Assembly: GCA_021731215.1 (NCBI GenBank)
Contig: JAKFXU010000406.1
Span: forward strand, 1-20,337
Reading direction: 5' to 3'
DNA: 20,337 bases
From: Rhodoferax sp.
Lineage (GTDB): Bacteria; Pseudomonadota; Gammaproteobacteria; Burkholderiales; Burkholderiaceae_C
The notes under the pieces are model-generated. The model saw only the letters and a program-made list of their open reading frames with translations, had not been told where the DNA came from and made no database searches. Position 1 is the stretch's first letter. Each line of letters starts with the position of its first letter. Made by a program: the position numbers and the translations under genes. This document shows positions 3,209 through 20,337 of this stretch, piece after piece.

Positions 3209-3247
3209 TTTTTGACCCTGTCCCAAATTTTTAAACAAGCGATTGCC

Positions 3248-3646: not shown

Positions 3647-3692
3647 GTCACACGGCCCGCCCACCAACCCTCATTCATCGAGTGATAACGCC

Positions 3693-4172: not shown

Positions 4173-4186
4173 AGAATTCAGGGGTA

Positions 4187-4200
4187 CCGGCGGTCGCCGG
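4187..4200 (+). other. Compact GC hairpin between MaoC and CoA-transferase genes
   Basis: CCGGC (4187-4191), loop GGTC, GCCGG (4196-4200). There is no T-run directly after it, so it is more likely an RNA-processing or stability element within the operon transcript than a terminator. Confidence 0.3.
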
Positions 4201-4233
4201 GAGGGACGGAAATAACAGGGTCAACTTATTTTT

Positions 4234-6380: not shown

Positions 6381-7058
6381 ATGAACGAGTTAGTACATTC
6401 CGCGCGCACAACCAAGACTGCGGTCAAGGCTTCACCGGTGTCCCGCACCAACGATCCGGCCCGCACCATGGCCGGCATTCTGGAGGTCGCCACCACGGAG
6501 TTCGCCAACAAGGGCCTGAGCGGCGCGCGCATCGACGAAATTGCAGCCGCCACGCGCACCAGCAAGCGCATGATTTACTACTACTTCGGCAGCAAGGAGG
6601 GCCTGTATGTGGCCGTGCTGGAAGAATCCTACCGTCGCATGCGGAAAATCGAAGCCGAGCTGCATCTGGAGGACCTGGCGCCCGAGGCGGCCTTGCAGCG
6701 GCTGGTGGAATTTACTTTCGATCACCACCATGGCAACCCGGACTACATCCGCCTGGTGATGACCGAGAACATGGAGCGCGGCGCGTACCTGGCGCAAAGC
6801 AAGAGCATCCAGCAGCTCAATGTGCCCGCCATCCAGGCGATTCGGCTGCTGTACGACCGCGGTGTGGCGCAGGGCGTGTTCCGACCTGGGCTGGAGCCGA
6901 TCGACATTCACGCCTCGATTTCGGCGCTGACTTTCTTCAATGTCTCGAATCAGCACACCTTCGGCCTGATCTTTAAGAACGACACGCGCTCGCCACAAGC
7001 TGTTGCGGCGCGCCGCAACAGCATCACCGAGATGATTGTGCGTTTCGTTCGCGCCTGA
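6381..7058 (+). CDS. TetR-family transcriptional regulator
   Basis: 225 residues. After an unusual ~30-residue polar N-terminal tail, the TetR DNA-binding domain begins at about residue 30. Helix-turn-helix residues 48-70 include the hallmark SKRMIYYYFGSKEGLY. The C-terminal ligand/dimer domain is ~140 residues and resembles the AcrR-type group. The ATG at 6381 is supported by a -10 box placed so that the mRNA would be leaderless; an alternative start nearer residue 30 (AMG-less, M30) would give a more typical length. It stands directly upstream of the TRAP transporter on the same strand. A palindrome in the TRAP promoter and a similar sequence over its own start codon suggest it represses both. 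Confidence 0.9.
   Translation: MNELVHSARTTKTAVKASPVSRTNDPARTMAGILEVATTEFANKGLSGARIDEIAAATRTSKRMIYYYFGSKEGLYVAVLEESYRRMRKIEAELHLEDLAPEAALQRLVEFTFDHHHGNPDYIRLVMTENMERGAYLAQSKSIQQLNVPAIQAIRLLYDRGVAQGVFRPGLEPIDIHASISALTFFNVSNQHTFGLIFKNDTRSPQAVAARRNSITEMIVRFVRA
6385..6398. promoter_or_regulatory. Degenerate copy of the TetR operator over the tetR start
   Basis: ACGAGTTAGTACAT matches the perfect palindrome at 7109-7122 in 10 of 14 positions and begins 4 bp inside the coding sequence, next to the predicted transcript start. Binding here would give autorepression. Confidence 0.4.
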
Positions 7059-7098
7059 GATTCGTCAGGGGGCACCGCCATACAAGGGTAAATACCGA

Positions 7099-7127
7099 TT
7101 CATAAAAAACGAACTAGTTCGTACATT
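7099..7127 (+). promoter_or_regulatory. Promoter of the TRAP transporter operon
   Basis: TTCATA (7099-7104), a 17-bp spacer and TACATT (7122-7127) each match consensus in four of six positions. The spacer contains the palindromic operator. The leader to the GTG at 7158 would be about 24 nt. Confidence 0.5.
7109..7122. promoter_or_regulatory. Perfect 14-bp palindrome, probable TetR operator
   Basis: ACGAACTAGTTCGT is its own reverse complement. It lies 50 bp after tetR and fills most of the spacer between the -35 and -10 elements of the TRAP promoter, the classic position for a TetR-family repressor site. Confidence 0.7.
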
Positions 7128-7155
7128 ATCGAATATTGATCCTGAAGGAGAGAGA

Positions 7156-7161
7156 ATGTGA
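7156..7161 (+). promoter_or_regulatory. ATGTGA start-stop overlapping the GTG start of dctQ
   Basis: AAGGAG (7145-7150) is followed by ATG at 7156, which is immediately closed by TGA. The real gene starts at the GTG embedded in it (7158). Both starts lie within working distance of the same ribosome-binding site, so initiation at the ATG would be unproductive and could lower or tune DctQ synthesis. Confidence 0.45.
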
Positions 7162-7706
7162 TCCACAAACTGATAGATAAGTACTGCCGGGCCTTGTCCT
7201 GGCTGATGGCTGCCAGCCTGGCACTGATGGTGGTATTGGTGTTCACCAACGTGGTGCTGCGCTACGCCTTCAACTCCGGTATCGCGGTGTCCGAAGAACT
7301 CTCGCGCTGGCTGTTCGTCTGGCTCACTTTCCTGGGGGCCATCGTGGCACTCCATGAGCACGGGCATCTGGGCACCGACATGCTGGTGGCACGGCTGCCC
7401 GTCCTGGGCAAGAAGGTTTGTCTGGTGGTGGGCCATGTGCTCATGATCTTTGTGTGCTGGCTGATCTTTGAAGGCACGCTGGCACAGGTCAGGATCAACT
7501 GGGACTCCACCAGTGCGGCGATGGAAGTGTCGATGGCCATTTTTTACGGCTGTGGCCTGGTGTTTGCGGTCTCCGGCGCTGTGATCTTGCTCAGCGACTT
7601 CTGGCGTCTGCTGACCGGACAACTGTCGGATGGTGAGCTGGTTGGCATCCGCGAAACCGTCGACATGCCGCACGGTGACCCCAAGTCCCTCAAGGGGTTC
7701 AAATGA
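7158..7706 (+). CDS. dctQ: TRAP transporter small permease subunit (DctQ family)
   Basis: 182 residues with four predicted membrane helices at about 14-36, 49-65, 86-106 and 126-146, the standard DctQ topology. The conserved segment VLRYAFNSGIAVSEELSRW joins helices 1 and 2. DctQ pairs with DctM to form the membrane part of a Na+-driven, binding-protein-dependent carboxylate importer. The start is GTG 7158, with AAGGAG 7 nt upstream; it overlaps an ATG-TGA start-stop. Its stop overlaps the dctM start (ATGA). The symbol denotes the family, not proven dicarboxylate specificity. Confidence 0.92.
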   Translation: MIHKLIDKYCRALSWLMAASLALMVVLVFTNVVLRYAFNSGIAVSEELSRWLFVWLTFLGAIVALHEHGHLGTDMLVARLPVLGKKVCLVVGHVLMIFVCWLIFEGTLAQVRINWDSTSAAMEVSMAIFYGCGLVFAVSGAVILLSDFWRLLTGQLSDGELVGIRETVDMPHGDPKSLKGFK

Positions 7707-8983
7707 CCATCGCCATTTTCCTGGGTTCGCTGCTGGGCGCCATGGCGCTGGGCATTCCCATCGCTTTTTCCCTGCTGCTGTGCGGTGCCGCGCTGATGTG
7801 GCATCTGGACATGTTTGATGCGCAAATTCTGGCGCAAAACGTGATCAACGGTGCCGACAGCTTCCCGCTGCTGGCGGTACCCTTTTTCATGCTGGCTGGC
7901 GAAATCATGAACGCGGGCGGTTTGTCACGCCGCATCGTCAACTTTGCCCTGGCGCTGGTGGGACACGTCAAGGGAGGGCTGGGCTATGTGGCGATTGTGG
8001 CTGCCGTGATCATGGCGGCGCTCTCCGGCTCGGCCGTGGCCGATGCAGCGGCCCTGTCCGCGCTGCTGTTGCCCATGATGGTGGCGGCCGGCCACGACAA
8101 GGCACGCTCGGCCGGCCTGCTGGCTTCGGCCAGCATCATCGCTCCCGTCATTCCGCCTAGCATCGCCTTCGTGATCTTTGGCGTGGCCGCCAACGTATCG
8201 ATTTCCAAGCTGTTCATGGCTGGCATCGCACCTGGGCTCATGCTCGGCGCGGCCTTGTGGTTCACCTGGTGGTACGTCGCACGCAAGGAGACGGTTGCAG
8301 TGCCGCCGCGCAAGTCGCGCGCGGAGGTGTTCGCCGCCTTCAAGGAAACCAGTTTTGCGATGGTGCTGCCGGTGATCGTGATCGTTGGACTGAAGTTCGG
8401 CGTGTTCACGCCCACCGAAGCGGCGGTCGTGGCGGCGGTTTACGCGTTGCTGATCTCGGTCTTGGTCTACAAGGAGCTCAAGCTCAACCAGTTGTACGGC
8501 CTGTTCCTGGCGGCAGCCAAGACCACGGCGGTGATCATGTTCCTGGTGGCGGCGGCCATGGTCTCGGCTTGGCTGATCACGGTGGCGCAGTTGCCGGATC
8601 AGGTAGTCACCCTGCTGCAACCGCTGCTCGACAGCCCCAAGCTGCTGATGCTGGCCATGATGGTGCTGGTGATGGTGGTGGGTACGGCGATGGACATGAC
8701 GCCCACCATCCTGATCCTGACCCCGGTGCTGATGCCGCTTGTGAACGCGGCAGGCATCGACCCCGTTTACTTTGGCGTGTTGTTCATCATCAACAACGCC
8801 ATCGGCCTGATTACCCCGCCGGTAGGCACCGTGCTCAACACCGTCGCCGGTGTGGGCAAGATCAGCATGGACGAGGTGACCAAGGGGATCTGGCCCTTCA
8901 TGGCGGCGCAGTTTGCGGTCATGTTCCTGCTGGTGCTGTTCCCGCAGATCGTCATGGTGCCCGCCCGCTGGTTCTATGGCTGA
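7703..8983 (+). CDS. dctM: TRAP transporter large permease subunit (DctM family)
   Basis: 426 residues, full family length, and almost entirely hydrophobic helices (about 11-12). Conserved features include an N-terminal GIPIAFSLLL segment, PFFMLAGEIMNAGGLSRRI (residues ~50-70), a GSAVADAAALSALLLPMM motif, PPSIAFVIFG, and a C-terminal DMTPTILILTPVLMPL with NNAIGLITPPVGTVLN. It is the transport-competent subunit of a TRAP system and works with the DctQ and DctP proteins encoded on either side. The start overlaps the dctQ stop by 4 bp, so translation is coupled. Confidence 0.96.
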   Translation: MTIAIFLGSLLGAMALGIPIAFSLLLCGAALMWHLDMFDAQILAQNVINGADSFPLLAVPFFMLAGEIMNAGGLSRRIVNFALALVGHVKGGLGYVAIVAAVIMAALSGSAVADAAALSALLLPMMVAAGHDKARSAGLLASASIIAPVIPPSIAFVIFGVAANVSISKLFMAGIAPGLMLGAALWFTWWYVARKETVAVPPRKSRAEVFAAFKETSFAMVLPVIVIVGLKFGVFTPTEAAVVAAVYALLISVLVYKELKLNQLYGLFLAAAKTTAVIMFLVAAAMVSAWLITVAQLPDQVVTLLQPLLDSPKLLMLAMMVLVMVVGTAMDMTPTILILTPVLMPLVNAAGIDPVYFGVLFIINNAIGLITPPVGTVLNTVAGVGKISMDEVTKGIWPFMAAQFAVMFLLVLFPQIVMVPARWFYG

Positions 8984-9005
8984 TCTGATTTGATTTCCAA
9001 AGTGC

Positions 9006-9036
9006 GGGGCGTGCATGGTACGCCACGTTCCGCCCC
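9006..9036 (+). other. Hairpin between dctM and dctP
   Basis: GGGGCG (9006-9011) can pair with CGCCCC (9031-9036), with alternative inner stems such as GGCGT/ACGCC (9008-9012 and 9020-9024). It lacks a strong T-run. A hairpin here could protect mRNA ends or allow different levels of the permease and the more abundant binding protein. Confidence 0.35.
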
Positions 9037-9076
9037 TTCCTGTTTGCGTACTGTTAAATTTTTTCAAGGAGACAAA

Positions 9077-10087
9077 ATGAAACGTCTGACGATCAAAACT
9101 CTGGTGGCCGTCGCTGCCATGGCCGCTTTCGGTGTGGCCAGCGCGCAGGACATCAAGGAGCGCACGCTCAAGTTCGCCACGCAGAACCCCAAGGGCCACC
9201 CCATTGTGATGGGCATGGAAAAGTTCGCTGAAATTGTCACGGCCAAGTCCGGCGGCAAGATCAAGGTCAATATGTTTCCTGGCGGCGTGCTGGGCGGCGA
9301 TGCACCCAACGTGTCGGCCCTGCAGGGCGGTACGCTTGAAATGGTGTCAATGAACTCGGGCATTCTGGCCAGCCAGGTGAAGGAATTTGCCATTTTTGAC
9401 TTTCCCTTCCTGTTTGCCAACGGCAGAGAAGCCGACGCCGTGGTCGATGGTCCGTTCGGCAAGAAAATGCATGACAGGTTGCAGGAAAAAGGCATCGTGG
9501 GCCTGACCTACTGGGAGCTTGGCTTTCGCAATATGACCAACAGCAAGCGCCCCCTCAACACGGTCGCCGACTTCGCCGGCCTGAAAATCCGCGTGATCCC
9601 CAATCCGATCAACCTGGACTGGGTTAGGGTATTGGATGCCAATCCCACGCCCATGGCCTTCCCCGAGGTCTATGGCGCACTGGAGTCGAAGGCGATTGAC
9701 GGCCACGAAAACCCGTTCTCCGTGATCCTGTCCAACAAAATCAATGAAGTTCAGAGGTACCTCACCATCACCAACCACGTCTATAACCCGCAGTCCGTCA
9801 TCATCAGCAAGAAGTTCTGGGACACATTGACCGGCGACGAGAAGAAACTGTTGGGCGACGCCGCCGTGGAAGCCGGTAAATACCAGCGCCAGGTGGCCCG
9901 TGACGCCGCCGGCACGGCGCTTGACGGACTCAAGAAGGCCGGTATGCAGGTCAACGAGCTGCCCGCCGCCGAGATGGACAAGCTGCGCGACAAGATGCGC
10001 CCGGTGATTGCCAAGTACGCGGTGTCGGTGGGGCAGGAGGTCGTCCAGGAAATCCAAAGCGAGCTGGCCAAGGCGCGCAGCAAGTAA
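9077..10087 (+). CDS. dctP: TRAP transporter solute-binding protein (DctP family)
   Basis: 336 residues with a clear Sec signal peptide: positively charged start MKRLTIK, hydrophobic core to about residue 20, and an ASA cleavage site (A23/Q24). The mature protein is the periplasmic receptor that captures the substrate and delivers it to DctQM. Family motifs include GMEKFAEIVTAKSGGKIKV and a GFRNMTNSKRPLNTVADFAGLKIRV stretch (split across ~165-195), in which Arg of GLKIRV normally binds the substrate carboxylate. The ATG at 9077 has AAGGAGA just upstream. Ligand type cannot be assigned, but neighbouring quinate/shikimate-type enzymes suggest a cyclic hydroxy acid. Confidence 0.94.
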   Translation: MKRLTIKTLVAVAAMAAFGVASAQDIKERTLKFATQNPKGHPIVMGMEKFAEIVTAKSGGKIKVNMFPGGVLGGDAPNVSALQGGTLEMVSMNSGILASQVKEFAIFDFPFLFANGREADAVVDGPFGKKMHDRLQEKGIVGLTYWELGFRNMTNSKRPLNTVADFAGLKIRVIPNPINLDWVRVLDANPTPMAFPEVYGALESKAIDGHENPFSVILSNKINEVQRYLTITNHVYNPQSVIISKKFWDTLTGDEKKLLGDAAVEAGKYQRQVARDAAGTALDGLKKAGMQVNELPAAEMDKLRDKMRPVIAKYAVSVGQEVVQEIQSELAKARSK

Positions 10088-10208: not shown

Positions 10209-11264
10209 ATGAGTAATAAAACCCGCATCGCCGTTGCCGGCGCCGGCTACATCGGCCAGGCCCACGTGGGCGTGGCCTTGAACAGCCCGAGCTGTGCACT
10301 GTCTGCCATTGTTGATCCGTCACCCGCCGCCGTGGCCGTGGCCGCCAAAGCCGGCGTTCCGCTGTACAAAACCCTCGAAGAACTGCTCGCCACGAACCGC
10401 CCCGACGGACTGATCCTCGCTACGCCCAATCAACTGCACGTACCGCAAGCCCTGCAGTGCATTGCAGCCGGTCTGCCCATCCTGCTGGAAAAGCCGATCG
10501 CCACCACCGTGGCGCAGGGCGAGCAATTGGTCAAAGTCGTGGCTGAGACCGGCGCCAGGGTGCTGATTGGTCACCACCGTGCCCACAGCCCGATCATGGC
10601 CAAGGCCAAAGAGGTGGTCGATTCCGGCAAGCTTGGCCAACTGGTGGCGGTCATGGGCAGCGCCACCTTTTTCAAGCCTGATCGCTATTACGCGGAGGCG
10701 CCCTGGCGGCGTGAAGTCGGCGCCGGACCGATCCTGATGAACATGATCCACGAGGTGCATAACCTGCGCATGCTGTGTGGCGACATCGTCGCGGTGCAGG
10801 CTTTTTCCTCGAATACCACACGCGGCTTCCCGGTGGAAGACACGGTCGCTATCAACCTGCGCTTTGCCAGTGGTGTGCTGGGCGCCTTCTTGCTGTCCGA
10901 CACCGCCGCCTGCCCGCGCAGCTGGGAGCAGACCTCGCAGGAAAACAAGGCCTACTCGAGCTACGACGACGAAGACTGCTATGTGATCACCGGCACCAAT
11001 GGCAGCCTGTCGGTGCCAACCATGCGCCTCAAAACCTATCCGCGCCCCGAAGATCGTTCCTGGTGGAAGGAATTCGAGGTCGGCGTGGTCGGCATGGTGC
11101 GCGACGACCCGCTCAAGCACCAGCTCGAACACTTCGGCGCCGTGGTTCGGGGCGAGGCGCAGCCGCTGGTCAGCGCGCGCGATGGCCTCTTGAACCTGCG
11201 CATCACCGAAGCCATTGCCCAGGCCGCCAACACCGGCCAAGTCATTGAGCTGCGCTCCGATTGA
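10209..11264 (+). CDS. Gfo/Idh/MocA-family NAD(P)-dependent oxidoreductase
   Basis: 351 residues. The N-terminal Rossmann domain has GAGYIG at 11-16 and an acidic residue after beta-2 (D36 in IVDPS) that favours NAD+. The catalytic EKP motif is at 94-96 (K95). In the C-terminal domain, the usual active-site Asp-x3-His region reads ILMNMIHEVHNL, keeping His (H181) but with Met in place of the first Asp/Asn position. The family oxidises or reduces hydroxyls on cyclic polyols, sugars and dihydrodiols; relatives include inositol and phthalate-dihydrodiol dehydrogenases. It heads the cluster containing AroQ- and AroE-like genes, 121 bp after dctP, so it may perform the first oxidation of the imported compound. 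That role is inference. Confidence 0.88.
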   Translation: MSNKTRIAVAGAGYIGQAHVGVALNSPSCALSAIVDPSPAAVAVAAKAGVPLYKTLEELLATNRPDGLILATPNQLHVPQALQCIAAGLPILLEKPIATTVAQGEQLVKVVAETGARVLIGHHRAHSPIMAKAKEVVDSGKLGQLVAVMGSATFFKPDRYYAEAPWRREVGAGPILMNMIHEVHNLRMLCGDIVAVQAFSSNTTRGFPVEDTVAINLRFASGVLGAFLLSDTAACPRSWEQTSQENKAYSSYDDEDCYVITGTNGSLSVPTMRLKTYPRPEDRSWWKEFEVGVVGMVRDDPLKHQLEHFGAVVRGEAQPLVSARDGLLNLRITEAIAQAANTGQVIELRSD

Positions 11265-11286
11265 AATTAACCCGAATCAAAACATC

Positions 11287-11733
11287 ATGAAAATTCTCAT
11301 GCTTCACGGCATCAACCACAACATGTTCGGCAAACGTGATCCGCTGCAATACGGCACCATCACGCTGGAAGAAATCAATGCCAGCCTGAACGCGCTGGGC
11401 CAAGAGCTGGGGGTGGAAGTGGAAAGCTTCCAGACCAACAGCGAAGGCGAAATGTGCGAGCGCATTCACCAGGGCTACCAGGACGGCGTGGACGCGGTGC
11501 TGATCAACGCCGGCGCCTGGACCCATTACAGCTACGGCATCCGCGATGCGCTGGCGATCCTGACTTGTCCGATTGTCGAGTTGCACATGTCCAATATTCA
11601 CGCCCGCGAGGCCTTCCGGCACGTGTCGGTGTTTGGCGAGATCGTCAAGGGCCAGATTTGTGGTTTTGGCGTCGACAGCTACCTGCTGGGGCTGCGCGCC
11701 GGTGTGTCTGCGGCACAAGCGGCAAAAAAATGA
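11287..11733 (+). CDS. Type II 3-dehydroquinate dehydratase family protein (AroQ-like, divergent)
   Basis: 148 residues, normal for the flavodoxin-like dodecameric type II dehydroquinase. Catalytic positions are kept: N10, R17, Y22 (base), N74, H80 in NAGAWTHYS, and H100, S102 and R111 in ELHMSNIHAREAFR. The N-terminal signature is altered: GINHNMFGKRDP replaces the usual GPNLNxLGxREP, losing the Pro and the aliphatic residue, and the NPGAYTH motif reads NAGAWTH. The family trans-eliminates water from, or cis/trans-hydrates, dehydroquinate to dehydroshikimate. Its stop overlaps the start of the second AroE-like gene (ATGA). Position in a transporter-linked operon suggests catabolic use, possibly on a dehydroquinate analogue. 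Confidence 0.88.
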   Translation: MKILMLHGINHNMFGKRDPLQYGTITLEEINASLNALGQELGVEVESFQTNSEGEMCERIHQGYQDGVDAVLINAGAWTHYSYGIRDALAILTCPIVELHMSNIHAREAFRHVSVFGEIVKGQICGFGVDSYLLGLRAGVSAAQAAKK

Positions 11734-12557
11734 TCAACGGCAACACTGAGCTGATCGCGCACATCGGCTACCCGACGCACGCCTTCAAGGCACCGCTGAT
11801 CTACAACCCCTGGTTTGAGAAGGCAGGCATCAACGCCGTCGTGGTGCCGATGGCCTGCCAGGCGCAGGACTACCCGGATTTTCTGCGCGCCGTGTTCAAG
11901 CTCAAAAACATGCGGGGCGCCCTCATCACCATGCCGCACAAGGTCAGCACCGTCGGCCTGGTCGACGAGGTGTTGCCCACGGCCGCCATTGCCGGTTCGT
12001 GCAACGCGGTGCGGCTGAGCCCTGAGGGTCGCTTGCAAGGCGATATGTTCGATGGCGAGGGTTTTGTGCGGGGTTTGCTGCGCAAGGGCTTGATGCTCAA
12101 GGGGGCCCGTGCCCTGGTGGTGGGCAGCGGCGGCGTCGGCTCGGCCATCGCCGCTTCGCTGGCGGCTGCCGGTGTGCTGGAGATCGACCTGTTCGATATC
12201 CATGGCGAGTCGGCAACTGTCTTGGCCCAGCGCTTGATGCAGCACTATCCCCAAATGACGGTTCGCACCGGCTTGAACGACCCCGCAGGCTTTGACCTGG
12301 TGGTCAACGCCACGCCCATGGGCATGAACGAAGGCGATCCATTGCCCATCGACATGTCCCGCATCGACCCGTCAACTTTCGTGGGCGAAGTGGTGATGAA
12401 GACCGAGATGACTGCTTTTTTGAAGGCGGCCCAGACCCGCGGTTGCCGCATTCAGGTGGGCTCCGACATGCTGTTTGAGCAAATACCGGCGTACCTGGAG
12501 TTCTTTGGTTTTCCCAACACCACGCCTGACGAGTTGCGTTCAGTGTCGAATCTATAG
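11730..12557 (+). CDS. Shikimate/quinate dehydrogenase family protein, divergent copy 2
   Basis: 275 residues. The catalytic pair is present: K71 in ITMPHK and D108 in GDMFDGEGF, with N92 in AGSCNAV. The substrate-carboxylate SxS motif is missing: the segment reads GYPTHAFKAP, with Phe and Ala at the two Ser positions. The Rossmann loop is GSGGVGSA (132-139), and beta-2 ends LFDIHGE, where the acidic D156 disfavours NADP and suggests NAD+, as in catabolic quinate dehydrogenases. The ATG at 11730 overlaps the AroQ-like stop. This is likely an NAD-dependent oxidoreductase on a cyclic hydroxy acid or a related compound lacking the normal carboxylate contact. The exact substrate is unknown. Confidence 0.87.
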   Translation: MINGNTELIAHIGYPTHAFKAPLIYNPWFEKAGINAVVVPMACQAQDYPDFLRAVFKLKNMRGALITMPHKVSTVGLVDEVLPTAAIAGSCNAVRLSPEGRLQGDMFDGEGFVRGLLRKGLMLKGARALVVGSGGVGSAIAASLAAAGVLEIDLFDIHGESATVLAQRLMQHYPQMTVRTGLNDPAGFDLVVNATPMGMNEGDPLPIDMSRIDPSTFVGEVVMKTEMTAFLKAAQTRGCRIQVGSDMLFEQIPAYLEFFGFPNTTPDELRSVSNL

Positions 12558-12568
12558 GCAATAACACC

Positions 12569-13513
12569 ATGTCCAAAATGCCCAATACCCCCGACGTCCT
12601 GATCAGCGAAGTCGGACCGCGCGACGGTCTGCAGTCGGTTAAAGCCACCATGCCGACCGCCGACAAGTTCCGCTGGATCGACGCCCTGGTAGCGGCCGGC
12701 CTGCGTGAAATTGAGGTTTGCTCTTTTGTGCCGGCCAAACACCTGCCGCAAATGGCGGACGCCGCCGAGGTGGTGCGCCACGCACTCACGCACCGGGGCG
12801 TCACGGTCATGGCCTTGGTGCCGAACTTGCGCGGTGCCGAAGCGGCGCTTAAGGCCGGGGTGCACAAGCTCACTATCCCCGTGTCGGCCAGTGCCGCCCA
12901 TTCGATGGCCAATGTGCGCAAGACGCGTGAAGAAATGATGGAGGAAGTGCGCGCCATCGTGCGCCTGCGCGACCAGATCGCCCCGGGCGTGAAGATCGAG
13001 GCCGGCATTTCCACCGCCTTCGGCTGCACCATCCAGGGTGAAGTCACGGACGAGGATGTGGTCTGGACCGCTGCCGGCTGCATCGAAGCCGGGGCCGAAG
13101 AAGCCGGCTTGTCAGACACCACCGGCATGGCCAACCCGGCCCAGGTGCGGCGTCTGTTTAACAAGGTGCGCGCCGCCATTGGCGATAAAACGGGTGCCGC
13201 CCACATGCACAACACGCGCGGTCTGGGCCTGGCCAACTGCCTGGCGGCTTATGACGTCGGCGTGCGCACCTTCGATGCCTCGCTCGGTGGCCTGGGCGGC
13301 TGCCCCTACGCGCCCGGCGCCTCGGGCAACGTGGTGACCGAAGACCTGGTGTTCATGTTCGAGGCCATGGGCGTCACGACCGGCGTCGATATCGAAAAAA
13401 TCATCGCGGCGCGCGCCCCCCTGATGGCCGGCCTGCCGGGCGAGCCAATCTACGGCATGACGCCCGAAGCGGGTTTGCCCAAAGGCTGGAAGCAGACGGC
13501 CCGGACTGCGTGA
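12569..13513 (+). CDS. HMG-CoA lyase family protein
   Basis: 314 residues with all main HMGL landmarks: EVGPRDGLQ near the start (R18, D19), SDTTG at 182-186, metal-binding H212 and H214 in HMHNTRGLGLANC, and the Cys loop GGLGGCPYAPGASGN with C245. The usual HDT reads HNT here. The family cleaves 3-hydroxy-3-methylglutaryl-CoA to acetoacetate and acetyl-CoA, and members also cleave related tertiary hydroxy-acyl-CoA esters. It follows the second AroE-like gene by 11 bp. With a CoA-transferase and MaoC hydratase nearby, it could perform the final C-C cleavage of a branched acyl-CoA made from the ring-opened substrate; it may also serve leucine degradation, though no liu genes are adjacent. Confidence 0.9.
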   Translation: MSKMPNTPDVLISEVGPRDGLQSVKATMPTADKFRWIDALVAAGLREIEVCSFVPAKHLPQMADAAEVVRHALTHRGVTVMALVPNLRGAEAALKAGVHKLTIPVSASAAHSMANVRKTREEMMEEVRAIVRLRDQIAPGVKIEAGISTAFGCTIQGEVTDEDVVWTAAGCIEAGAEEAGLSDTTGMANPAQVRRLFNKVRAAIGDKTGAAHMHNTRGLGLANCLAAYDVGVRTFDASLGGLGGCPYAPGASGNVVTEDLVFMFEAMGVTTGVDIEKIIAARAPLMAGLPGEPIYGMTPEAGLPKGWKQTARTA

Positions 13514-13596
13514 TTTAACTGCCGCATGCTGCTTCGCATCGTCAGCATCTTTGTTTCGGTCTTCATCACCGTGCTGGTGGGCTTTGCCCATGGCTG

Positions 13597-13764
13597 ATGA
13601 CGCCCGATAGCGCCAACTTTTCCGGCAACGTCCATGGCGGCCTTATTCTCAAGCTGCTGGACCAACTGGCCCATGCCTGCGCCAGCCGCTGCGTCGTGAC
13701 GCCGTGGCAGCCGAGCACGCCGGATGAACGGCGGCGTCATGCCGCGATTGGCACCGGCGCATAG
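13597..13764 (+). pseudogene. Internally deleted acyl-CoA thioesterase (hot-dog) remnant
   Basis: A 55-codon frame begins MTPDSANFSGNVHGGLILKL and runs on through LLDQLAHACASR, which is the characteristic N-terminal part of the bacterial acyl-CoA hydrolase family (normally ~130-170 residues). It then jumps to PSTPDERRRHAA, which resembles the family's C-terminal tail, and stops. The central ~80 residues that complete the hot-dog fold are absent, so an internal in-frame deletion with the junction near residues 33-40 is the simplest reading. A 23-codon hydrophobic frame at 13526-13597 overlaps its start (TGATG) and may be part of the same ruin. It cannot be functional as a thioesterase. Confidence 0.7.
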
Positions 13765-13787
13765 TCGCCTTTTCACCAAACCTGCCC

Positions 13788-14750
13788 ATGCTCGACATCC
13801 TGGCCATTACCGGTCCCATCTACATCACCATCGCCCTGGGCTACCTGACGACCCGTCTGGGCCTGTTTGCCAAGGCCGACATGCGCGTGCTGGGCAAGTT
13901 CGTGATCACGCTGGCGTTGCCAGCGCTGCTGTTCAATGCCCTGGCCCAGCGCAATATTGGCGAGATTCTCAACGTCAGCTATGTGCTGGCCTACCTGGCC
14001 GGTTCGTTGCTCGTGATCGGCCTGGGTTTGCTCTGGTGTCGGCGCGTCGCCGGTCTGAGTCCGAGCACCAGTGCGGTCTATGTGATGGGCATGACGTGCT
14101 CGAACAGTGGTTTTGTTGGTTACCCGATTCTGGTGCTGACCCTACCCCCGGTTGCGGGCGTCGCGCTGGCCCTTAACATGGTGGTGGAAAACGTGGTCGT
14201 TATCCCGCTGCTGCTGGCCTTGGCTGAGCGCGGACGCGGTGACGCCGGGCAGTGGTACCGTGTGCTGGGCCAGTCGCTGGCCCGACTGGTCTCCAATCCG
14301 CTGATCATGGGTCTGGTCGCAGGATTGACCGTCTCCCTCATGGGTTGGAAATTACCGGAGCCAGTGGCACGAACCATCAACCTGTTTGCCCTGTCCAGCG
14401 GCGCCCTCTCGCTGTTTGTCATTGGCGGCGCGCTGGTCGGATTGTCGATGCGGGGCATGGGGCCACAAATCACGCCGATCGCGGTTGGCAAGCTGATTTT
14501 TCACCCGCTGGCCGTGCTGCTGGCCGTGTTCGTGCTGCCTCTTCTGGGTCTGCCCGCGATGGACCCCACGCTGCGCATGGCCGCCGTGCTGATGGCTGCC
14601 ATGCCCATGATGGGCATCTATCCGATCCTGGCCCAGAGCTACGGACAGGAGAGTTTGAGTGCGGCTGCCTTGCTGGTTACCACGGTGGCCTCATTCTTTA
14701 CCCTCAGCGTGCTGCTCTGGCTAGCCCCGCATGTCACGCTGTGGAGCTGA
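13788..14750 (+). CDS. AEC (auxin efflux carrier) family transporter
   Basis: 320 residues with about ten membrane helices arranged as two five-helix repeats. The N-terminal MLDILAITGPIYITIALGYL and the segment GMTCSNSGFVGYPIL (around residues 104-118) are typical of bacterial AEC/MdcF-like permeases, which carry malonate, malate and other carboxylates. The ATG at 13788 lacks a clear ribosome-binding site. It is separated from the HMG-CoA lyase gene by the thioesterase remnant and converges on the acyl-CoA dehydrogenase gene with only 10 bp between stops. Direction of transport is not known; in this setting it could export or import an organic acid intermediate. Confidence 0.9.
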   Translation: MLDILAITGPIYITIALGYLTTRLGLFAKADMRVLGKFVITLALPALLFNALAQRNIGEILNVSYVLAYLAGSLLVIGLGLLWCRRVAGLSPSTSAVYVMGMTCSNSGFVGYPILVLTLPPVAGVALALNMVVENVVVIPLLLALAERGRGDAGQWYRVLGQSLARLVSNPLIMGLVAGLTVSLMGWKLPEPVARTINLFALSSGALSLFVIGGALVGLSMRGMGPQITPIAVGKLIFHPLAVLLAVFVLPLLGLPAMDPTLRMAAVLMAAMPMMGIYPILAQSYGQESLSAAALLVTTVASFFTLSVLLWLAPHVTLWS

Positions 14751-14760
14751 CCAGTGCGCC

Positions 14761-15933
14761 TCAGGCGTTGACGTCAAACAGGGCGGCGCCGCGCTTGACC
14801 ACACTGCGCGCGATCACGGTGCGGTGAATTTCCGAGGTGCCATCAAAAATGCGGTAAATGCGCGCATCGCGGTAGTAGCGCTCAATCGGCAGTTCCTTGC
14901 AAAAACCCATGCCGCCAAACACCTGAACCGCGCGGTCGGTAACGCGGCCCAGGGTCTCGGCGGCTTGCACCTTCACCATTGAAATCCAGTCACGCGCGTC
15001 CAGCCCCTGGTCGATCATCCAGGCTGCGTGCAACACCATCAGCCGGGCCGAGTTGATCTCGATCACGCTGTCAGCCAGCATCTGCTGCACCAACTGAAAG
15101 TCGGCAATCGGTTTGCCAAACTGCTTGCGTTGCGCGGCATAATCCACCATCAACTGCAGCACGTGGCTGGCCTTGCCGACCGCGCGCGCCCCGACCTGGG
15201 CCAGCCGCACCCGGCCCAACACGCCGAGCGCCTGCGCCAGGCCCTTGCCCTCGTCACCCAGCAGAGCCACTGGTTCCAGCAGCACATTGTCAAACCACAG
15301 TTCCAGGTGGCTGGTGCCGCGCAGGCCCATCATCTTCTGATCCTTGCCGAGCGTGAAGCCGGGCAGACCCTTGTCCACCAGGAACAGGGAAATTTCCTTT
15401 TTGCTGTCTTGCGTTCCGGTCAGGGCGGACACGATAAAAAAATCGGACACCTCGCCGTCGCTGATGAAATGCTTCGCTCCTGAAAGGCACCAGCCCTCTG
15501 GCGTCTTGACTGCGCGGGTGTTGATGCCGGCGGCGTCCGAGCCAGCGCCCGCTTCGGTGATGGCGATCGAGCAGACCCGCTCGCCGCGCACGGCAGGTGT
15601 CAGCCAGCGCTCAATTTGTGCCCCCTGGGCGGCCAGCAAGACCTCGTACACATTGCCAAAGGCGCGGCGGATCAGGATGTCGGTGGTGTGGCCGAACTGC
15701 TCTTCCAGCAGCATGGTGTCCAGTGCGCTCAAGCCCCCACCGCCGAATTGTTCCGGGATGTTCATTGCATACAGGCCCAGCGCCTTCGATTTTTCATGGA
15801 TGGCTTTGGCCTTGTCGGGCGCCAAAAAGCCTTGTTGCTCGACTTCATCTTCCAGGGGCTGCAGTTCCTCGGCGATGAAGCGGCGTACGGTCGCGATCAT
15901 CATTTTTTGCTCTTCAGCAAGTGCAAAGTTCAT
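14761..15933 (-). CDS. Acyl-CoA dehydrogenase family protein
   Basis: 390 residues, a standard FAD-dependent acyl-CoA dehydrogenase. Landmarks are GLYAMNIPEQFGGGGLS (53-69), the FAD/substrate segment AITEAGAGSDAAG (124-136), the helix with RKQFGKPIADFQ (269-280), and the C-terminal VFGGMGFCKELPIERYYRDAR. The position of the catalytic Glu in medium-chain-type enzymes (YEGT) is Asp here: IFDGTSEIHR, D364. The start at ATG 15933 has GGAG 9 nt upstream; the open frame continues 44 codons further but that extension is hydrophobic and unlike the family. It lies 162 bp downstream of the lyase gene on the same strand, so it may have its own promoter. It probably desaturates a CoA ester generated in the pathway. 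Confidence 0.93.
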   Translation of the reverse strand: MNFALAEEQKMMIATVRRFIAEELQPLEDEVEQQGFLAPDKAKAIHEKSKALGLYAMNIPEQFGGGGLSALDTMLLEEQFGHTTDILIRRAFGNVYEVLLAAQGAQIERWLTPAVRGERVCSIAITEAGAGSDAAGINTRAVKTPEGWCLSGAKHFISDGEVSDFFIVSALTGTQDSKKEISLFLVDKGLPGFTLGKDQKMMGLRGTSHLELWFDNVLLEPVALLGDEGKGLAQALGVLGRVRLAQVGARAVGKASHVLQLMVDYAAQRKQFGKPIADFQLVQQMLADSVIEINSARLMVLHAAWMIDQGLDARDWISMVKVQAAETLGRVTDRAVQVFGGMGFCKELPIERYYRDARIYRIFDGTSEIHRTVIARSVVKRGAALFDVNA

Positions 15934-16095
15934 TTTATTTCTCCAGATTGTTGATAAAACTGACGGTTGAGAAAGAAACGAACTCAGGCGCTGGAAAACC
16001 AGAAGGCTCCAAAAAAGTACTGCAAAAAAATGTCGGAATAGATGCGGGTGAGCATGAGCGTGCAAGGGTCCGGCGGGCGATGGAAAATATTTTTC

Positions 16096-17313
16096 TTATG
16101 TTGGTTGGTTAAGCAGCGCCAGGGCTTTGACTTGTCTGTGTGTCAATTCGGCCGCATGCTGGGCCAGAGCCGGGTTGAACCATTCATCAGCGACCTTGGC
16201 TGGCAGAGTCGCCCGCAGCGCGTCCAGGTTGGCCCGCATGCGCTGCGTATCCAGCTGCAGACCGGGCAGCGCCTGGGCCATGGCCTGCGCGGCACCATGC
16301 GCCGACATCAGCAGCGACGGCCATTCGGCCAGTTCAGCCTGCCAATTGCCCAGGGCGCGCTCGTGTTCCTGCGGCATCGCTGCCAGCAGGGCGGCGACCC
16401 GTTGCGGTGTGCGCTGGGCGGCGGCCAGCGCCACCATGCTGGCCAATTGCTTGCGTTGGTGCGGCATCGTTGTCGATGCGCCGCCACGTCCGGTCTCAAG
16501 TGGCTCGGCCAGTTCGCCCACTTCATACTGGCCCATCAGCGCAATGTCTTTGGCCATTTTCCCCAGGCTACCCACCAGCAGCCCCAGTTCACAACCCAGC
16601 GCGACCCATTCATCGCGCTGCGTATGCCAGGCCAGGGTGGGGGCTCGCAGCTTTAAATCGGTCGCCATCAGGGCCGTGATCTGCGGCCCCAAATCGTTGC
16701 CATTTTTCTTCATTTGAGCCAGCGTGCCCACAGCGCCCCCCAATTGCAGGCTCAAGGCGTTGCTGGCGCTGGTTTGCAGGCGTTGCCGGCTGCGCACCAG
16801 CGGCGCCGCCCAGCCGACACACTTCAGACCAAAGCTGGTGACCGACGCCGGTTGCATCAGCGTGCGTGCCAGTACTGGATCGGCCGCATGACGCCCGGCC
16901 AGTGCCAGCAGCGCAGCCACCGCCTTGTCGATATCGGCTTCAATCAGGATGAGCGCGTCGCGCGTGACCAAGGCCAGCGCGGTATCGATCACATCCTGGC
17001 TGCTGCTGCCCAAGCCGACAAAACCGGTGGCCTCTTTGTTGAAAAGGCCCACAGTTTCCTTGAGGCTGTCGATCAGCGGGATCGCGATGCTGCCGGCCCG
17101 AATGCTTTCGCGCACGATTTTGGGCGCATCAAATAATTCGATCTTGCAGGTGCCGATGATGGACTGGGCTGCCGCTTCCGGGATCAGGCCGACGCTGGCC
17201 TGCGCGCGTGCCAGGGCGGCCTCAAAACGCAGCATGGCTTCGATGAAATTGCGCTCACTCAAAGCTTCCAGAACTTCAGAGGTGGTTAAAAAACCTTCAA
17301 ATATGCTGCGCAT
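16096..17313 (-). CDS. 3-carboxy-cis,cis-muconate cycloisomerase-like lyase (PcaB-like, divergent)
   Basis: 405 residues of the fumarase/aspartase superfamily, closest in pattern to PcaB: EAMLRFEAALARAQASVGLIP (25-45), GSSSQDVIDTAL (102-113), then RTLMQPASVTSFGLK (150-164). PcaB lactonises carboxymuconate in the protocatechuate ortho route. The superfamily signature loop, usually GSSxMPxKxNP, reads GASTTMPHQRKQ (278-289): Lys becomes Gln286 and the Asn-Pro is lost. ATG 17313 was chosen because family homology begins there; a TTG at 17343 that overlaps the stop of the upstream TIM-barrel gene (TTGA) is an alternative adding 10 residues. It is third in the minus-strand operon. Cycloisomerase activity is doubtful given the altered loop. 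Confidence 0.85.
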   Translation of the reverse strand: MRSIFEGFLTTSEVLEALSERNFIEAMLRFEAALARAQASVGLIPEAAAQSIIGTCKIELFDAPKIVRESIRAGSIAIPLIDSLKETVGLFNKEATGFVGLGSSSQDVIDTALALVTRDALILIEADIDKAVAALLALAGRHAADPVLARTLMQPASVTSFGLKCVGWAAPLVRSRQRLQTSASNALSLQLGGAVGTLAQMKKNGNDLGPQITALMATDLKLRAPTLAWHTQRDEWVALGCELGLLVGSLGKMAKDIALMGQYEVGELAEPLETGRGGASTTMPHQRKQLASMVALAAAQRTPQRVAALLAAMPQEHERALGNWQAELAEWPSLLMSAHGAAQAMAQALPGLQLDTQRMRANLDALRATLPAKVADEWFNPALAQHAAELTHRQVKALALLNQPT

Positions 17314-17339
17314 GGGAGGGGCCGGATCTGATCGGTAAA

Positions 17340-18245
17340 TCAAGTAGCTGTTGAATGTTTCAAGCGGATCTGGTTGGGCAGCGGCACGGAGCGTTGCAAT
17401 ACGTTCTCACCCAGCCAAAGGGCTGCGCGCCGGGCGCGCTGGGCCACGCTGGGCAGGGGCATCTGCCGGTAGTCGTGATTGAACACTTGAAAACTGTAGT
17501 CACCGCGATAACCCAGGCCATGAAGCTGGGTCACCAATGCCGCGAGGGCGTCGCTGTGTTCCCCTTCCCCGGGGAAAACGCGAAAATGGTGGGCGCTGGC
17601 GATGCGCTCCTCGACCGAACTGGCCTCGGTCCACATGAAGTCGGCCAGTTGCACCAGAAACAATTTGTCGGGGTCGAGCATATCGAGCTCCTCAAGCGAG
17701 GTGGCTGCTGCGAACATTTGAGAGGAGTCAAGGCCCAAGCCCAGATTGGGCATGTCGGCCTGGCAAACCAGGTCCCAGGCCTGCGGGAATGCATGGATGG
17801 TGCGCCCCTGCGAGCAAGCTTCATAAGCGATTCGGATATTCATCGGGATCGCCAGCATCGCCAGTTTGCGCAGGTCCCTGGTCAGGGCAGGGGTTTCGCC
17901 ACTGGCTTGCTTGAGCGTCGATGAGCCAACCAGCAGCAGACGGCAATCGAGCGCCTGACACATCTCCAGCATCGATTTGGCAATGTCAATCTTGTAAGCG
18001 TGCAGGGGTCCTGACAAGCCTTCAAAATCGCGCAAGGTCTGAAAGCCGGTGACGCGCAAACCGCTGGCACGCACCGCCGCCACGGCCGCCTCCAGGCCGT
18101 CGGGGTGACCCACCAGGTCGGTGGCGGCCAGCATGATCTGGGTGAAACCGGCCTCCCGCACCGCCTTGAGCCGGGCTTCGAGGGGCCCCGCCAGCGAGAT
18201 CGAGTCCATCCCGAAATCGTCGATGTTTCCGCTGTAATGGCTCAT
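17340..18245 (-). CDS. Xylose-isomerase-like TIM barrel, dehydroshikimate-dehydratase-like
   Basis: 301 residues, similar to the N-terminal domain of QuiC1-type 3-dehydroshikimate dehydratases, with AWDLV, LFLVQLADF and FRVFPGEGE as the most telling segments. The family turns 3-dehydroshikimate into protocatechuate using a divalent metal. Of the expected ligand positions, E142 (AYEA), D173 (GLDSSQ) and Q199 (LVQLAD) are present. The fourth, normally Glu in a LEIFN motif, is Gln253 (FQVFN, codon CAA), and the His normally three residues after the Asp (DSFH) is Gln176. Function as a true dehydratase is therefore uncertain. The ATG at 18245 lies 5 nt after the HPPD-like stop with a weak ribosome-binding site, implying coupled translation. 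Confidence 0.85.
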   Translation of the reverse strand: MSHYSGNIDDFGMDSISLAGPLEARLKAVREAGFTQIMLAATDLVGHPDGLEAAVAAVRASGLRVTGFQTLRDFEGLSGPLHAYKIDIAKSMLEMCQALDCRLLLVGSSTLKQASGETPALTRDLRKLAMLAIPMNIRIAYEACSQGRTIHAFPQAWDLVCQADMPNLGLGLDSSQMFAAATSLEELDMLDPDKLFLVQLADFMWTEASSVEERIASAHHFRVFPGEGEHSDALAALVTQLHGLGYRGDYSFQVFNHDYRQMPLPSVAQRARRAALWLGENVLQRSVPLPNQIRLKHSTAT

Positions 18246-18250
18246 GGTGC

Positions 18251-19153
18251 TCAGCCGCGCTGGTTGTGAACGAGCTCAAAACTTACGCCGCCCATCCAGG
18301 TTTTGGTCAAGGCGCCGCGGCCCTCGGTGTGAACGCTGCCTGATTCGATAAACTCCGCGCCCCGCTGGCTAAGCTCGGCCACCGCTTGCAGCACGTCGGC
18401 GCAGCCCAGGCCGATGCGTTGCAGGCCCTCGTCATCTTCCACATCCAGCACGCCGGCTTCAGGCTCAATCAGTTGGATGTAAAAACGCGACGCCGCCGGG
18501 CACGGGCTGCGCAGGATGCGCCCCTTGGGCAGAATGCCAAAGCGCTGCTCGGCGGGCAGGTCGGTAAAGCCAAACAGCGCGCGGTAAAACTCGGTCCAGT
18601 CCTCGGTGCGGTCGTTGCCAATGTACTGAACGACGCCAAAAAAGTGCAGTCCGGCAATCGCGCTCGGATGCTGATCGACCGTGGGGATGGGGGTGAAATC
18701 CACGTCGTAAATGGAAAATTCCCGGTGCCGGTCGACGAAGTAGATGCGGCTGGTGCCCACGCCGTGGATGGCGGGAATATTCAACTCCATCACCTCCACC
18801 CGGGTCGGCACGGCCCAGGCGCCGTGATCGAGCGCGTGGCGGTAGGCGGCAGCGGCATCGCGCACGCGCAACGCGATCGCTGCCAGCACCGGCTTCTCGG
18901 TCAACACCCGTCCATTGGCGTGGGCATTGACGATCACATTGATGTCGCCCTGGCGGTACAACAAGACCTCACGCGAGCGATGACGCGCCACTGGCCGAAA
19001 GCCCATGATCTCCAGCACTTGACCTAGCGCTTGCGGTTTTGAGGTGGCGTACTCGATGAACTCCAGGCCTTCGAGACCCAGTGGATTGAGCCCTTGCGCG
19101 ATCTGTTCGCGGTCGGCGCCGCTGGTTTGGGTCAAATTAGGGGTTGCCAACAT
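18251..19153 (-). CDS. 4-hydroxyphenylpyruvate-dioxygenase-like VOC protein (QuiC1 C-terminal-domain type)
   Basis: 300 residues, shorter than true HPPD (~350). Two VOC modules are visible; the second contains AGLHFFGVVQYIGND (H170), EGLQRIGLGCADV and GGVSFELVHNQ (E293). In HPPD the iron is held by His, His and Glu; the middle His (IQHIAL-type motif) is Arg246 here, so dioxygenase chemistry is unlikely. A similar HPPD-like domain is fused to the C-terminus of QuiC1-type dehydroshikimate dehydratases, where it supports the dehydratase domain. Here it is a separate gene placed 5' of the TIM-barrel gene. The ATG at 19153 has GGAG 8 nt upstream. It starts 72 bp after the end of tctA. Confidence 0.83.
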   Translation of the reverse strand: MLATPNLTQTSGADREQIAQGLNPLGLEGLEFIEYATSKPQALGQVLEIMGFRPVARHRSREVLLYRQGDINVIVNAHANGRVLTEKPVLAAIALRVRDAAAAYRHALDHGAWAVPTRVEVMELNIPAIHGVGTSRIYFVDRHREFSIYDVDFTPIPTVDQHPSAIAGLHFFGVVQYIGNDRTEDWTEFYRALFGFTDLPAEQRFGILPKGRILRSPCPAASRFYIQLIEPEAGVLDVEDDEGLQRIGLGCADVLQAVAELSQRGAEFIESGSVHTEGRGALTKTWMGGVSFELVHNQRG

Positions 19154-19225: not shown

Positions 19226-20337
19226 TCAAGCGCGCCCACGCCACCGTTGCCACCACCTGGTTTGGCTCACAATGGTGAAGGTCAGTGCCAGCAGGATGAT
19301 CAGGGACAGAGGCGAGGTGAAAAACTCGCCCGCGAACTGGCCCACCTTGCCTTCTGCGGAAATCATGGCTTGCCGATAGGACCGATCCATCAGCGGCCCC
19401 AGAATCATGCCCAGAATAACCGGACCGACTTGAAAGCCATACATTTTTAGAAAGTAGCCGATCACGCCAAAAGCCAGCATCCAGTACACATCGACCGGGT
19501 TGTTGTTGATGGCGTATGCCCCCACGGCCGACAACACCAGGATCAGCGGCAACAAAATCGGCTTGGGGGTCTCGACAATCTTGGCAAATAGCTTGATGCC
19601 GGTCAGGCCAAAAATCAGCAAGAAGCAGTTGGCCAGTGTCAAGGCACCGACCTGGAACCAGAACAGGTGCGGCGTTTCGATCATCAGCATCGGTCCGGGT
19701 TTGAGCCCGTGGATGTACATCGCACCAATGATCACGGCAGTCACGGCATCGCCTGGAATGCCCAGCGTCAGCATGGGAATATAGGCTCCCGGGACCGCTG
19801 CGTTGTTGGCCGACTCGGGCGCCACCAGGCCCTCGTAGGCGCCTTCGCCAAACGGCCGCGACGGGTTCTTGACGCTGCGTTTGGCGTGGTCATAGGCCAT
19901 CAGGGCGGCGATGTCGCCGCCGGCACCGGGCAAGGCTCCCACCACCACACCGATGGCCGATGTACGGCTTGCCAAGGGCAGGTATTTACGGACCAAACTC
20001 CAGGACGGAATGATCTTGCTGACATCCTGCTTGACAGCCTTGAGCTTCATTTCATGCAACTGCACCAGCACCTCGGCGACCCCAAAGAAGCCAATCATGG
20101 CCGCCACATACGATATCCCCGCCGTGAGCTGCAGGCTGCCAAAGGTAAAGCGCGACTCGGCCGTCATGGGGTCCAGGCCCACGGAACCAATCAGCACCCC
20201 CAGGGCGCCGGCGAAAATGCCCTTGGCCAGCGAGCCGCCCGACAGGCTGCCAACCAACAAAATACCCCAGATGGCCAGCATCAGGTAATCACGCGGCGCA
20301 AACTTGAGCGCCAGTTCCGACACCGCAGGCGCAGCAA
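19226..20337 (-). CDS. tctA: TctA, large membrane subunit of a tripartite tricarboxylate transporter (5' end outside window)
   Basis: About 370 C-terminal residues; the frame is open to the window edge, and full-length TctA is ~500. Diagnostic motifs are GALPGAGGDIAALMAYDHAKR (split here from ~residue 130) and ESANNAAVPGAYIPMLTLGIPGDAVTA, two glycine/proline-rich loops typical of TctA. The remaining sequence is a series of membrane helices ending in WWQRWRGRA. TctA works with TctB and a periplasmic TctC receptor to import carboxylates; those genes are not in the window. It is the first visible gene of the minus-strand operon with the HPPD-like, TIM-barrel and lyase genes, so its substrate is probably the compound they act on. 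Confidence 0.95.
   Translation of the reverse strand, partial: AAPAVSELALKFAPRDYLMLAIWGILLVGSLSGGSLAKGIFAGALGVLIGSVGLDPMTAESRFTFGSLQLTAGISYVAAMIGFFGVAEVLVQLHEMKLKAVKQDVSKIIPSWSLVRKYLPLASRTSAIGVVVGALPGAGGDIAALMAYDHAKRSVKNPSRPFGEGAYEGLVAPESANNAAVPGAYIPMLTLGIPGDAVTAVIIGAMYIHGLKPGPMLMIETPHLFWFQVGALTLANCFLLIFGLTGIKLFAKIVETPKPILLPLILVLSAVGAYAINNNPVDVYWMLAFGVIGYFLKMYGFQVGPVILGMILGPLMDRSYRQAMISAEGKVGQFAGEFFTSPLSLIILLALTFTIVSQTRWWQRWRGRA

Follow-up and report, generated by a model that had tools for sequence, protein, structure and literature searches.

In this Rhodoferax sp., an operon related to the genes for dehydroshikimate dehydratase (DSD) encodes a DSD-like barrel and a PcaB-like protein (PcaB being 3-carboxy-cis,cis-muconate cycloisomerase) that have both lost catalytic residues. 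The window analysed here, i.e. the whole stretch of 20,337 nucleotides, comprises bases 1–20337 of contig C5 in a genome assembly of 3.18 Mb (507 contigs, 84.67% complete). Judged by their sequences, the DSD and PcaB-like proteins of this altered lineage are putative pseudoenzymes, i.e. proteins kept by purifying selection after the loss of catalytic residues, and the intactness of such proteins suggests either a non-catalytic or a new role. Most likely, by analogy with the HPPD-like domain and the oligomers of QsuB, they would be non-catalytic partners of a third protein of the operon, which resembles 4-hydroxyphenylpyruvate dioxygenase (HPPD). To the wider reading, that two modules meet in the window, namely a quinate/shikimate module and an operon whose retained non-catalytic DSD and PcaB-like proteins partner the HPPD-like protein, we give about an even chance. 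The operon, which is read from the reverse strand, consists of the following genes.

19226..20323, reverse strand: TctA-like transporter subunit, upstream of the HPPD-like gene and at the contig end (translation read)
18251..19153, reverse strand: HPPD-like protein without the two metal His (PF14696)
17340..18245, reverse strand: DSD-like TIM barrel with Gln176 and Gln253 (PF01261)
16096..17343, reverse strand: PcaB-like protein with altered catalytic loop; relatives suggest ATG 17313 as a likelier start than TTG 17343

The order of TctA-like and HPPD-like genes is also found at four loci of relatives (L008, L015, L146 and L148).

Loss of active-site residues in the dehydratase barrel

DSD sequences were scored as canonical or altered by active-site residues in the numbering of QuiC1, as listed in the part of PMC7442255 available to us. 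All 12 canonical sequences keep R64, E134, D165, H168, Q191, R210 and E239. The window DSD lacks this set: H168 is replaced by Gln (Gln176) and E239 by Gln (Gln253), and Cys (Cys144) stands in place of Leu136; at the position of Ser206 it has Ala, as do all 12 canonical sequences. Among 89 genomes of the genus, 29 have a match to the barrel, i.e. 17 altered ones including that of the window, 11 canonical ones (G177 being partial) and one fragment of 41 residues (G200) that was dropped. In the 16 further altered genomes two to four of the active-site residues are lost, with E134 and H168 missing from all 16 and E239 and R64 from 15 each, D165 and R210 kept throughout and Q191 kept in 13. The mildest of these cases, G185, retains R64 and E239. 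In addition, the stretch after QLAD is shorter in the further altered sequences, which is not the case in the window. Close relatives outside this group are canonical. Of homologues listed as the best 120 of 8000 or 7981 matches, 18 were aligned with the barrel (and 25 and 21 with AroE2 and AroQ, two proteins of the forward-strand module described below), and all 18, which are 79–83% identical to the window protein, have the canonical His and Glu. Among the 48 other genomes of the family that have a match, DNA of 29 was examined, and all 29 are canonical at the four positions inspected. Gln at both DSD positions occurs in the window alone among the sequences examined.

What replaces the lost residues varies, with Q, E, A, D, N or G at H168 across the altered sequences, although Gln at E134 and Ala at E239 each recur in 10 of 16. 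Among the 16 further altered sequences, 97 positions are the same in 15 or more. Most of these carry the canonical letter and few differ, a single one being polar (Gln284 for Arg), so that no new conserved site is visible. The barrel fold itself appears to be kept: PF01261 matches the window protein, and a structure model of the altered DSD of a relative (G174; pLDDT 84.6 from 19 sequences) retains the barrel, with 5hmq as its best Foldseek match (TM 0.81). A second dehydratase in the altered genomes was considered and rejected, as the barrel search gave a single match in each of the 17. Near the altered operon of G145 lies a gene for a distant TIM barrel, possibly another dehydratase (L152, 5015-5866), and near that of G159 lie genes for a type I dehydroquinase and an aldehyde-dehydrogenase-like protein (L149, 16882-19212). 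A separate case is found at L040, in a distant betaproteobacterial bin and a distant part of the HPPD-like tree, where an intact DSD-like protein of 301 residues (near 11271) lacks E134, D165, H168 and E239 and has both an HPPD-like gene and an intact QuiC (near 6435) in its neighbourhood.

The HPPD-like and PcaB-like proteins

QuiC1 of Pseudomonas putida (PDB 5HMQ) and QsuB of Corynebacterium glutamicum consist of the same two parts, a DSD barrel and an HPPD-like half. In the window, by contrast, these parts are separate genes, the DSD is without some of its active-site residues and the HPPD-like protein lacks both metal His, which QuiC1 has. According to the parts of PMC7442255 that we could consult, QsuB deprived of its HPPD-like domain shifts from mostly octamers to mostly monomers, and this domain showed no detectable activity with protocatechuate. 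The same source describes what the HPPD-like half does in bacterial DSDs as still unknown.

The change in the HPPD-like protein is older than that in the barrel of the window. None of 33 aligned sequences has the first metal His, and all 33 have Arg (Arg246 in the window) in place of the second. The metal Glu is kept, and a canonical split DSD occurs beside HPPD-like proteins bearing the same Arg. The protein thus lacks the two His that, together with Glu, mark an HPPD, and with 92.1 bits it stays below the cut-off of 277 of TIGR01263; its structure model reaches a pLDDT of only 34.5 (12 sequences). In the tree of HPPD-like proteins, from which G134 is absent, a single clade (98/97) holds the window and G185 together with Polaromonas-type sequences and a core group of 14 altered genomes. 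Branching within this clade is poorly defined, so that the dehydratase site may have been lost once or several times, and the count of four label changes on the tree is inflated, because L008, L015 and L037 are labelled canonical there and belong to altered genomes.

The closest solved relative of the PcaB-like protein by sequence is PcaB itself (1re5, E 5.7e-78), from which it differs by the loop STTMPHQRKQ and by LMQPA in place of WLQHA. Its catalytic loop is altered, and its TIGR02426 score of 318.6 lies below the family cut-off of 355.75. MPHQRKQ is found in the window alone among the sequences examined; in the other 15 altered sequences the loop is unrecognizable or, in two of them, deleted, and further superfamily motifs are changed as well. 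Of seven sequences that accompany a canonical DSD, four have MPHKRNP or MPHKHNP in the loop, one LPHKRNP (L088), one MLHKRNP (L032) and one a deletion (L061), and all seven already have LMQPA for WLQHA. PcaB therefore drifted before DSD. The deletion belongs to Polaromonas sp. A23 (L061, 19526-20737), in which the DSD is canonical.

Retention and selection

In the 17 altered genomes, the HPPD-like, DSD and PcaB-like proteins are each of full length in 16. The exceptions are G134, where the HPPD-like gene lies beyond the contig and the DSD is cut by the contig end, and G159, which has no PcaB match. Locus L037 of Rhodoferax sp. U2-2l carries altered DSD and HPPD-like genes, again with no match to PcaB. 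Within the operon the genes are spaced by -4 to 27 bases at 14 of the 15 loci measured. In the altered group mean pairwise identity is 0.830 for the HPPD-like protein, 0.615 for DSD and 0.554 for PcaB, as compared with 0.747, 0.803 and 0.687 among nine canonical sequences (one cut HPPD-like sequence excluded). DSD is better conserved than the HPPD-like protein in 27 of 28 canonical pairs and in none of 120 altered pairs. Since PcaB is less conserved than the HPPD-like protein in both groups, this reversal concerns DSD only. That the dehydratase site is lost, yet the HPPD-like protein is more strongly conserved, suggests that the latter may act by itself.

In the ten closest altered pairs, which were drawn from five related genomes and are therefore not independent of each other, the ratio of non-synonymous to synonymous substitution rates (dN/dS) is 0.055–0.108 for the HPPD-like protein, 0.148–0.231 for the altered DSD and 0.131–0.216 for the altered PcaB. 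For the window DSD it is 0.12–0.15 in comparison with three canonical sequences (two of them from Polaromonas), from which the window differs by a dN of 0.119–0.132, the three differing among themselves by 0.062–0.069. A first-pass annotation of this DNA, made from its letters and open reading frames, had judged the substitutions to be something other than random decay. For the altered barrel and lyase this agrees with the intact frames and with dN/dS well below 1 in the further genomes of the genus.

The quinate/shikimate module and the wider neighbourhood

The forward-strand genes converge with those of the reverse strand at 14750/14761, in accordance with the two facing gene sets that the first-pass annotation had described. 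Their context was examined at 80 of 583 confirmed loci of AroE2, the FKAP-type AroE-like protein of the window. LysR, TetR, TRAP, Tct, AEC, PanE and VOC assignments were made by reading translations.

11287..11733, forward strand: AroQ-like type II dehydroquinase of the GINHN subfamily (NF003805, 199 bits against a cut-off of 146)
11730..12557, forward strand: AroE2, FKAP-type quinate/shikimate dehydrogenase-like protein (PF08501)
10209..11264, forward strand: Gfo/Idh/MocA oxidoreductase (PF01408), present at 19 of the 80 AroE2 loci
12569..13513, forward strand: HMGL-like lyase adjoining AroE2 (NF004283, 289.5 bits against a cut-off of 246)
13788..14750, forward strand: AEC-type transporter (translation read), near the altered DSD in several relatives
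6381..10087, forward strand: TetR regulator and TRAP transporter DctQ, DctM, DctP (translations read)
2258..6302, forward strand: neighbour block of PanE-like, VOC, MaoC, CaiB-type CoA-transferase and first AroE (SKSP) genes (family models; VOC and PanE by translation)
5469-6302, forward strand: first AroE within this block, canonical SKSP
14761..15933, reverse strand: acyl-CoA dehydrogenase (PF00441, PF02770, PF02771)

The AroQ-like protein also exceeds the curated cut-off of TIGR01088 (171.7 against 169.85). At residues 8-12 it has GINHN instead of GPNLN, which we take to be the motif of type II dehydroquinases; GINHN is shared by 35 of 52 relatives (AroQ proteins of at least 60% identity, present at 52 of the 80 loci), the other 17 having near variants. 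All nine residues that we presume to be catalytic in this family (N10, R17, Y22, N74, H80, E98, H100, R107 and R111) are present in the window protein, and the set is complete in 51 of the 52 relatives, the last being cut. The closest solved relative (6cv6, E 3.4e-75), a type II dehydroquinase by its deposited name alone, has the same GINHN and shows no difference at the presumed catalytic residues. In AroE2, FKAP (residues 19-22) stands in place of an SKSP-type motif, and the protein scores 135 with the AroE equivalog TIGR00507, below the cut-off of 200.2. Its substrate-binding domain is matched by PF08501, and the catalytic Lys71 and Asp108 are found in 80 of 80 relatives, with FKAP in 58, FKSP in 15 and FRAP in 7. 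With 4k28 and the NAD-dependent quinate/shikimate dehydrogenase 3jyo it has in common the shikimate dehydrogenase fold and the catalytic Lys and Asp, the difference being that Phe and Ala replace two Ser of SKSP. By these comparisons, GINHN and FKAP are ancient marks of a subfamily that is widespread and retains the residues presumed to be catalytic.

At no fewer than eight loci, i.e. at least L021, L041, L042, L058, L066, L069, L072 and L073, AroQ, an intact QuiC and AroE2 are consecutive, and the QuiC dehydratase domain at these eight is 60–64% identical to P. putida QuiC1. Plasmid pPR19E02 of Rhizobium hidalgonense carries pcaBGHCD and pcaQ next to a group of QuiC, Gfo, FKAP-type AroE2 and a dehydroquinase that is annotated as type II and is 37% identical to the window AroQ. 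This plasmid thus resembles the window in bringing together QuiC-type, dehydroquinase, Gfo and AroE2 genes, and differs from it in that its QuiC is fused and intact and pca genes are adjacent. By the context at these loci and on the plasmid, GINHN and FKAP would accompany ordinary conversion of quinate/shikimate to protocatechuate. AroE2 is present in 16 of the 17 altered genomes of the genus, and DctP and DctM are found at 54 of the 80 AroE2 loci.

The first-pass annotation had proposed that five substitutions, one in each of five families, arose in coordination for one shared, non-canonical substrate series. All five strings (GINHN, FKAP, Gln253, Arg246 and MPHQRKQ) can indeed be read in the respective proteins, which lie near each other. 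GINHN, however, touches none of the nine presumed catalytic AroQ residues, and the list had left out Gln176 and Cys144 of the barrel as well as the missing first metal His of the HPPD-like protein. Furthermore, when co-occurrence was checked in other genomes, as the annotation itself had suggested, the substitutions were found apart, with AroQ and AroE2 of the GINHN/FKAP type beside intact QuiC at the eight or more loci above, the Arg-bearing HPPD-like protein beside canonical split DSD, and a canonical DSD together with a deleted PcaB loop in L061. They are also of different age, GINHN, FKAP and Arg246 occurring throughout their subfamilies, with variants, whereas Gln253, Gln176 and MPHQRKQ are confined to the window among the sequences examined. 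We therefore discarded five coordinated substitutions, and enzymes for one shared non-canonical substrate series are very improbable. Since the substitutions do not co-occur, such a series is not needed for AroQ and AroE2, and only the operon of HPPD-like, altered DSD and altered PcaB genes may plausibly have changed its role.

That the genes form a conserved catabolic neighbourhood, as had also been proposed, is borne out by a gene order that recurs in relatives. The 2258..6302 block, whose order is kept for example in L006, L023, L026, L058, L061 and L071, lies beyond 10209..19153, yet within the same conserved neighbourhood; the order PanE, VOC, MaoC, CoA-transferase and canonical AroE recurs in Caballeronia too (L049, L077). 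With CoA-transferase, MaoC, HMGL and acyl-CoA dehydrogenase genes at hand, ring-opened acids may be processed as CoA esters, as the first-pass annotation had suggested. A third AroE-like gene, 37% identical to AroE2, was detected in 10 of the 17 altered genomes. At several loci (L161 1009-1947, L146 944-1903, L157 439-1398) it precedes a Tct or ABC-type transporter and, further downstream, the operon of HPPD-like, altered DSD and altered PcaB genes; in L161 and L146 an IclR-type regulator lies opposite. The genes around the relatives' operons were picked naively, with antisense frames included.

A lyase gene of the window's HMGL type is present in 16 of the 17 altered genomes as compared with 1 of 11 canonical ones (Fisher p 9e-6). 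Because the tree gives a single independent pair, we dropped this link as independent evidence. The intradiol dioxygenase PF00775 occurs in none of the 17 altered genomes, in 4 of the 11 canonical ones and in 6 of all 89. The LigB-type family PF02900 is found in 15 of the 17 altered genomes, the two without it being that of the window and G185. In two genomes a LigB-family dioxygenase gene lies a few kb from the altered operon (G152:C20:9150-9992 and G153:C171:59649-60491), which may represent a 4,5-cleavage route for protocatechuate there.

Alternative explanations

In the two-module reading, the forward-strand module (TRAP transporter, Gfo/Idh, AroQ and AroE2) would take up a quinate/shikimate-type acid, which AroE2 would oxidize, and AroQ would dehydrate dehydroquinate to dehydroshikimate. 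The reverse-strand operon (Tct transporter, HPPD-like, DSD and PcaB-like genes) would correspond to a split QuiC, whose DSD would convert dehydroshikimate to protocatechuate. In the window lineage, the altered DSD and PcaB would then have become non-catalytic partners, i.e. scaffolds or stabilizers, of the HPPD-like protein, which would carry the remaining function. Several observations weigh against this reading. The window DSD retains E134, R64 and the loop and is thus just partly altered; in G159 no PcaB gene was found, and in G185, the exception in gene spacing, PcaB is 958 bases away from DSD. PcaB is better conserved than the HPPD-like protein in 0 of 28 canonical and 0 of 105 altered pairs and may simply be loosely constrained, and the ten closest pairs behind the dN/dS values come from five related genomes. 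On the side of the quinate/shikimate module, AroQ is present in just 7 of the 17 altered genomes, and AroE2 relatives on three other plasmids sit among different genes, so that the AroE2 substrate may vary.

The altered proteins could instead be passengers under weakened selection that slowly decay, the pathway product being made or used differently and only the HPPD-like protein mattering. This would account for the faster evolution of the altered DSD as compared with the canonical one (mean identity 0.615 against 0.803), the lack of PF00775 in all 17 altered genomes, the separate loop deletion in L061 and the altered genome devoid of PcaB, but with full-length frames kept by 16 of 17 genomes, and with close pairs showing a dN/dS of 0.13–0.23, it is rather doubtful. 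Purifying selection on both proteins would equally be expected if they were new enzymes with other catalytic residues and a changed substrate, working with the HPPD-like protein and perhaps HMGL, for which the recurrent Gln at E134 and Ala at E239 and the co-occurrence of HMGL with altered DSD also speak. We regard such new enzymes as unlikely, because the residues at the old site differ from sequence to sequence, the few non-canonical letters among the 97 invariant positions include a single polar one, and the PcaB loop is variable or deleted. Finally, the fragmentary state of the genome and the fact that only the window has Gln at both places could point to sequencing or assembly errors. Such errors are an extremely remote explanation, since the frame is intact and holds more than one separate change, Cys144 and the altered PcaB loop among them, and since the same His is lost in 16 further genomes of the genus, some of them assemblies of 20 to 50 contigs.

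A bolder version of the partnership of altered DSD, altered PcaB and HPPD-like protein is conceivable, if speculative. The whole quinate-derived operon may have turned into an assembly without canonical catalytic sites, in which the HPPD-like protein, formerly an accessory of the dehydratase, would now be central to function, as a new enzyme or as a ligand sensor, and would require both former enzymes as subunits; L040 would have taken the DSD step separately. In the open-licence literature, of which our search had partial coverage, we found no paper with both 'dehydroshikimate dehydratase' and 'pseudoenzyme', none on AroE-like/Ael1 and none on a quinate dehydrogenase with TRAP.

Overall, names such as 'dehydroshikimate dehydratase' or PcaB, when assigned automatically, would be misleading for these genomes. 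The loss of the dehydratase site in this lineage amounts to a natural experiment on the role of the HPPD-like half.

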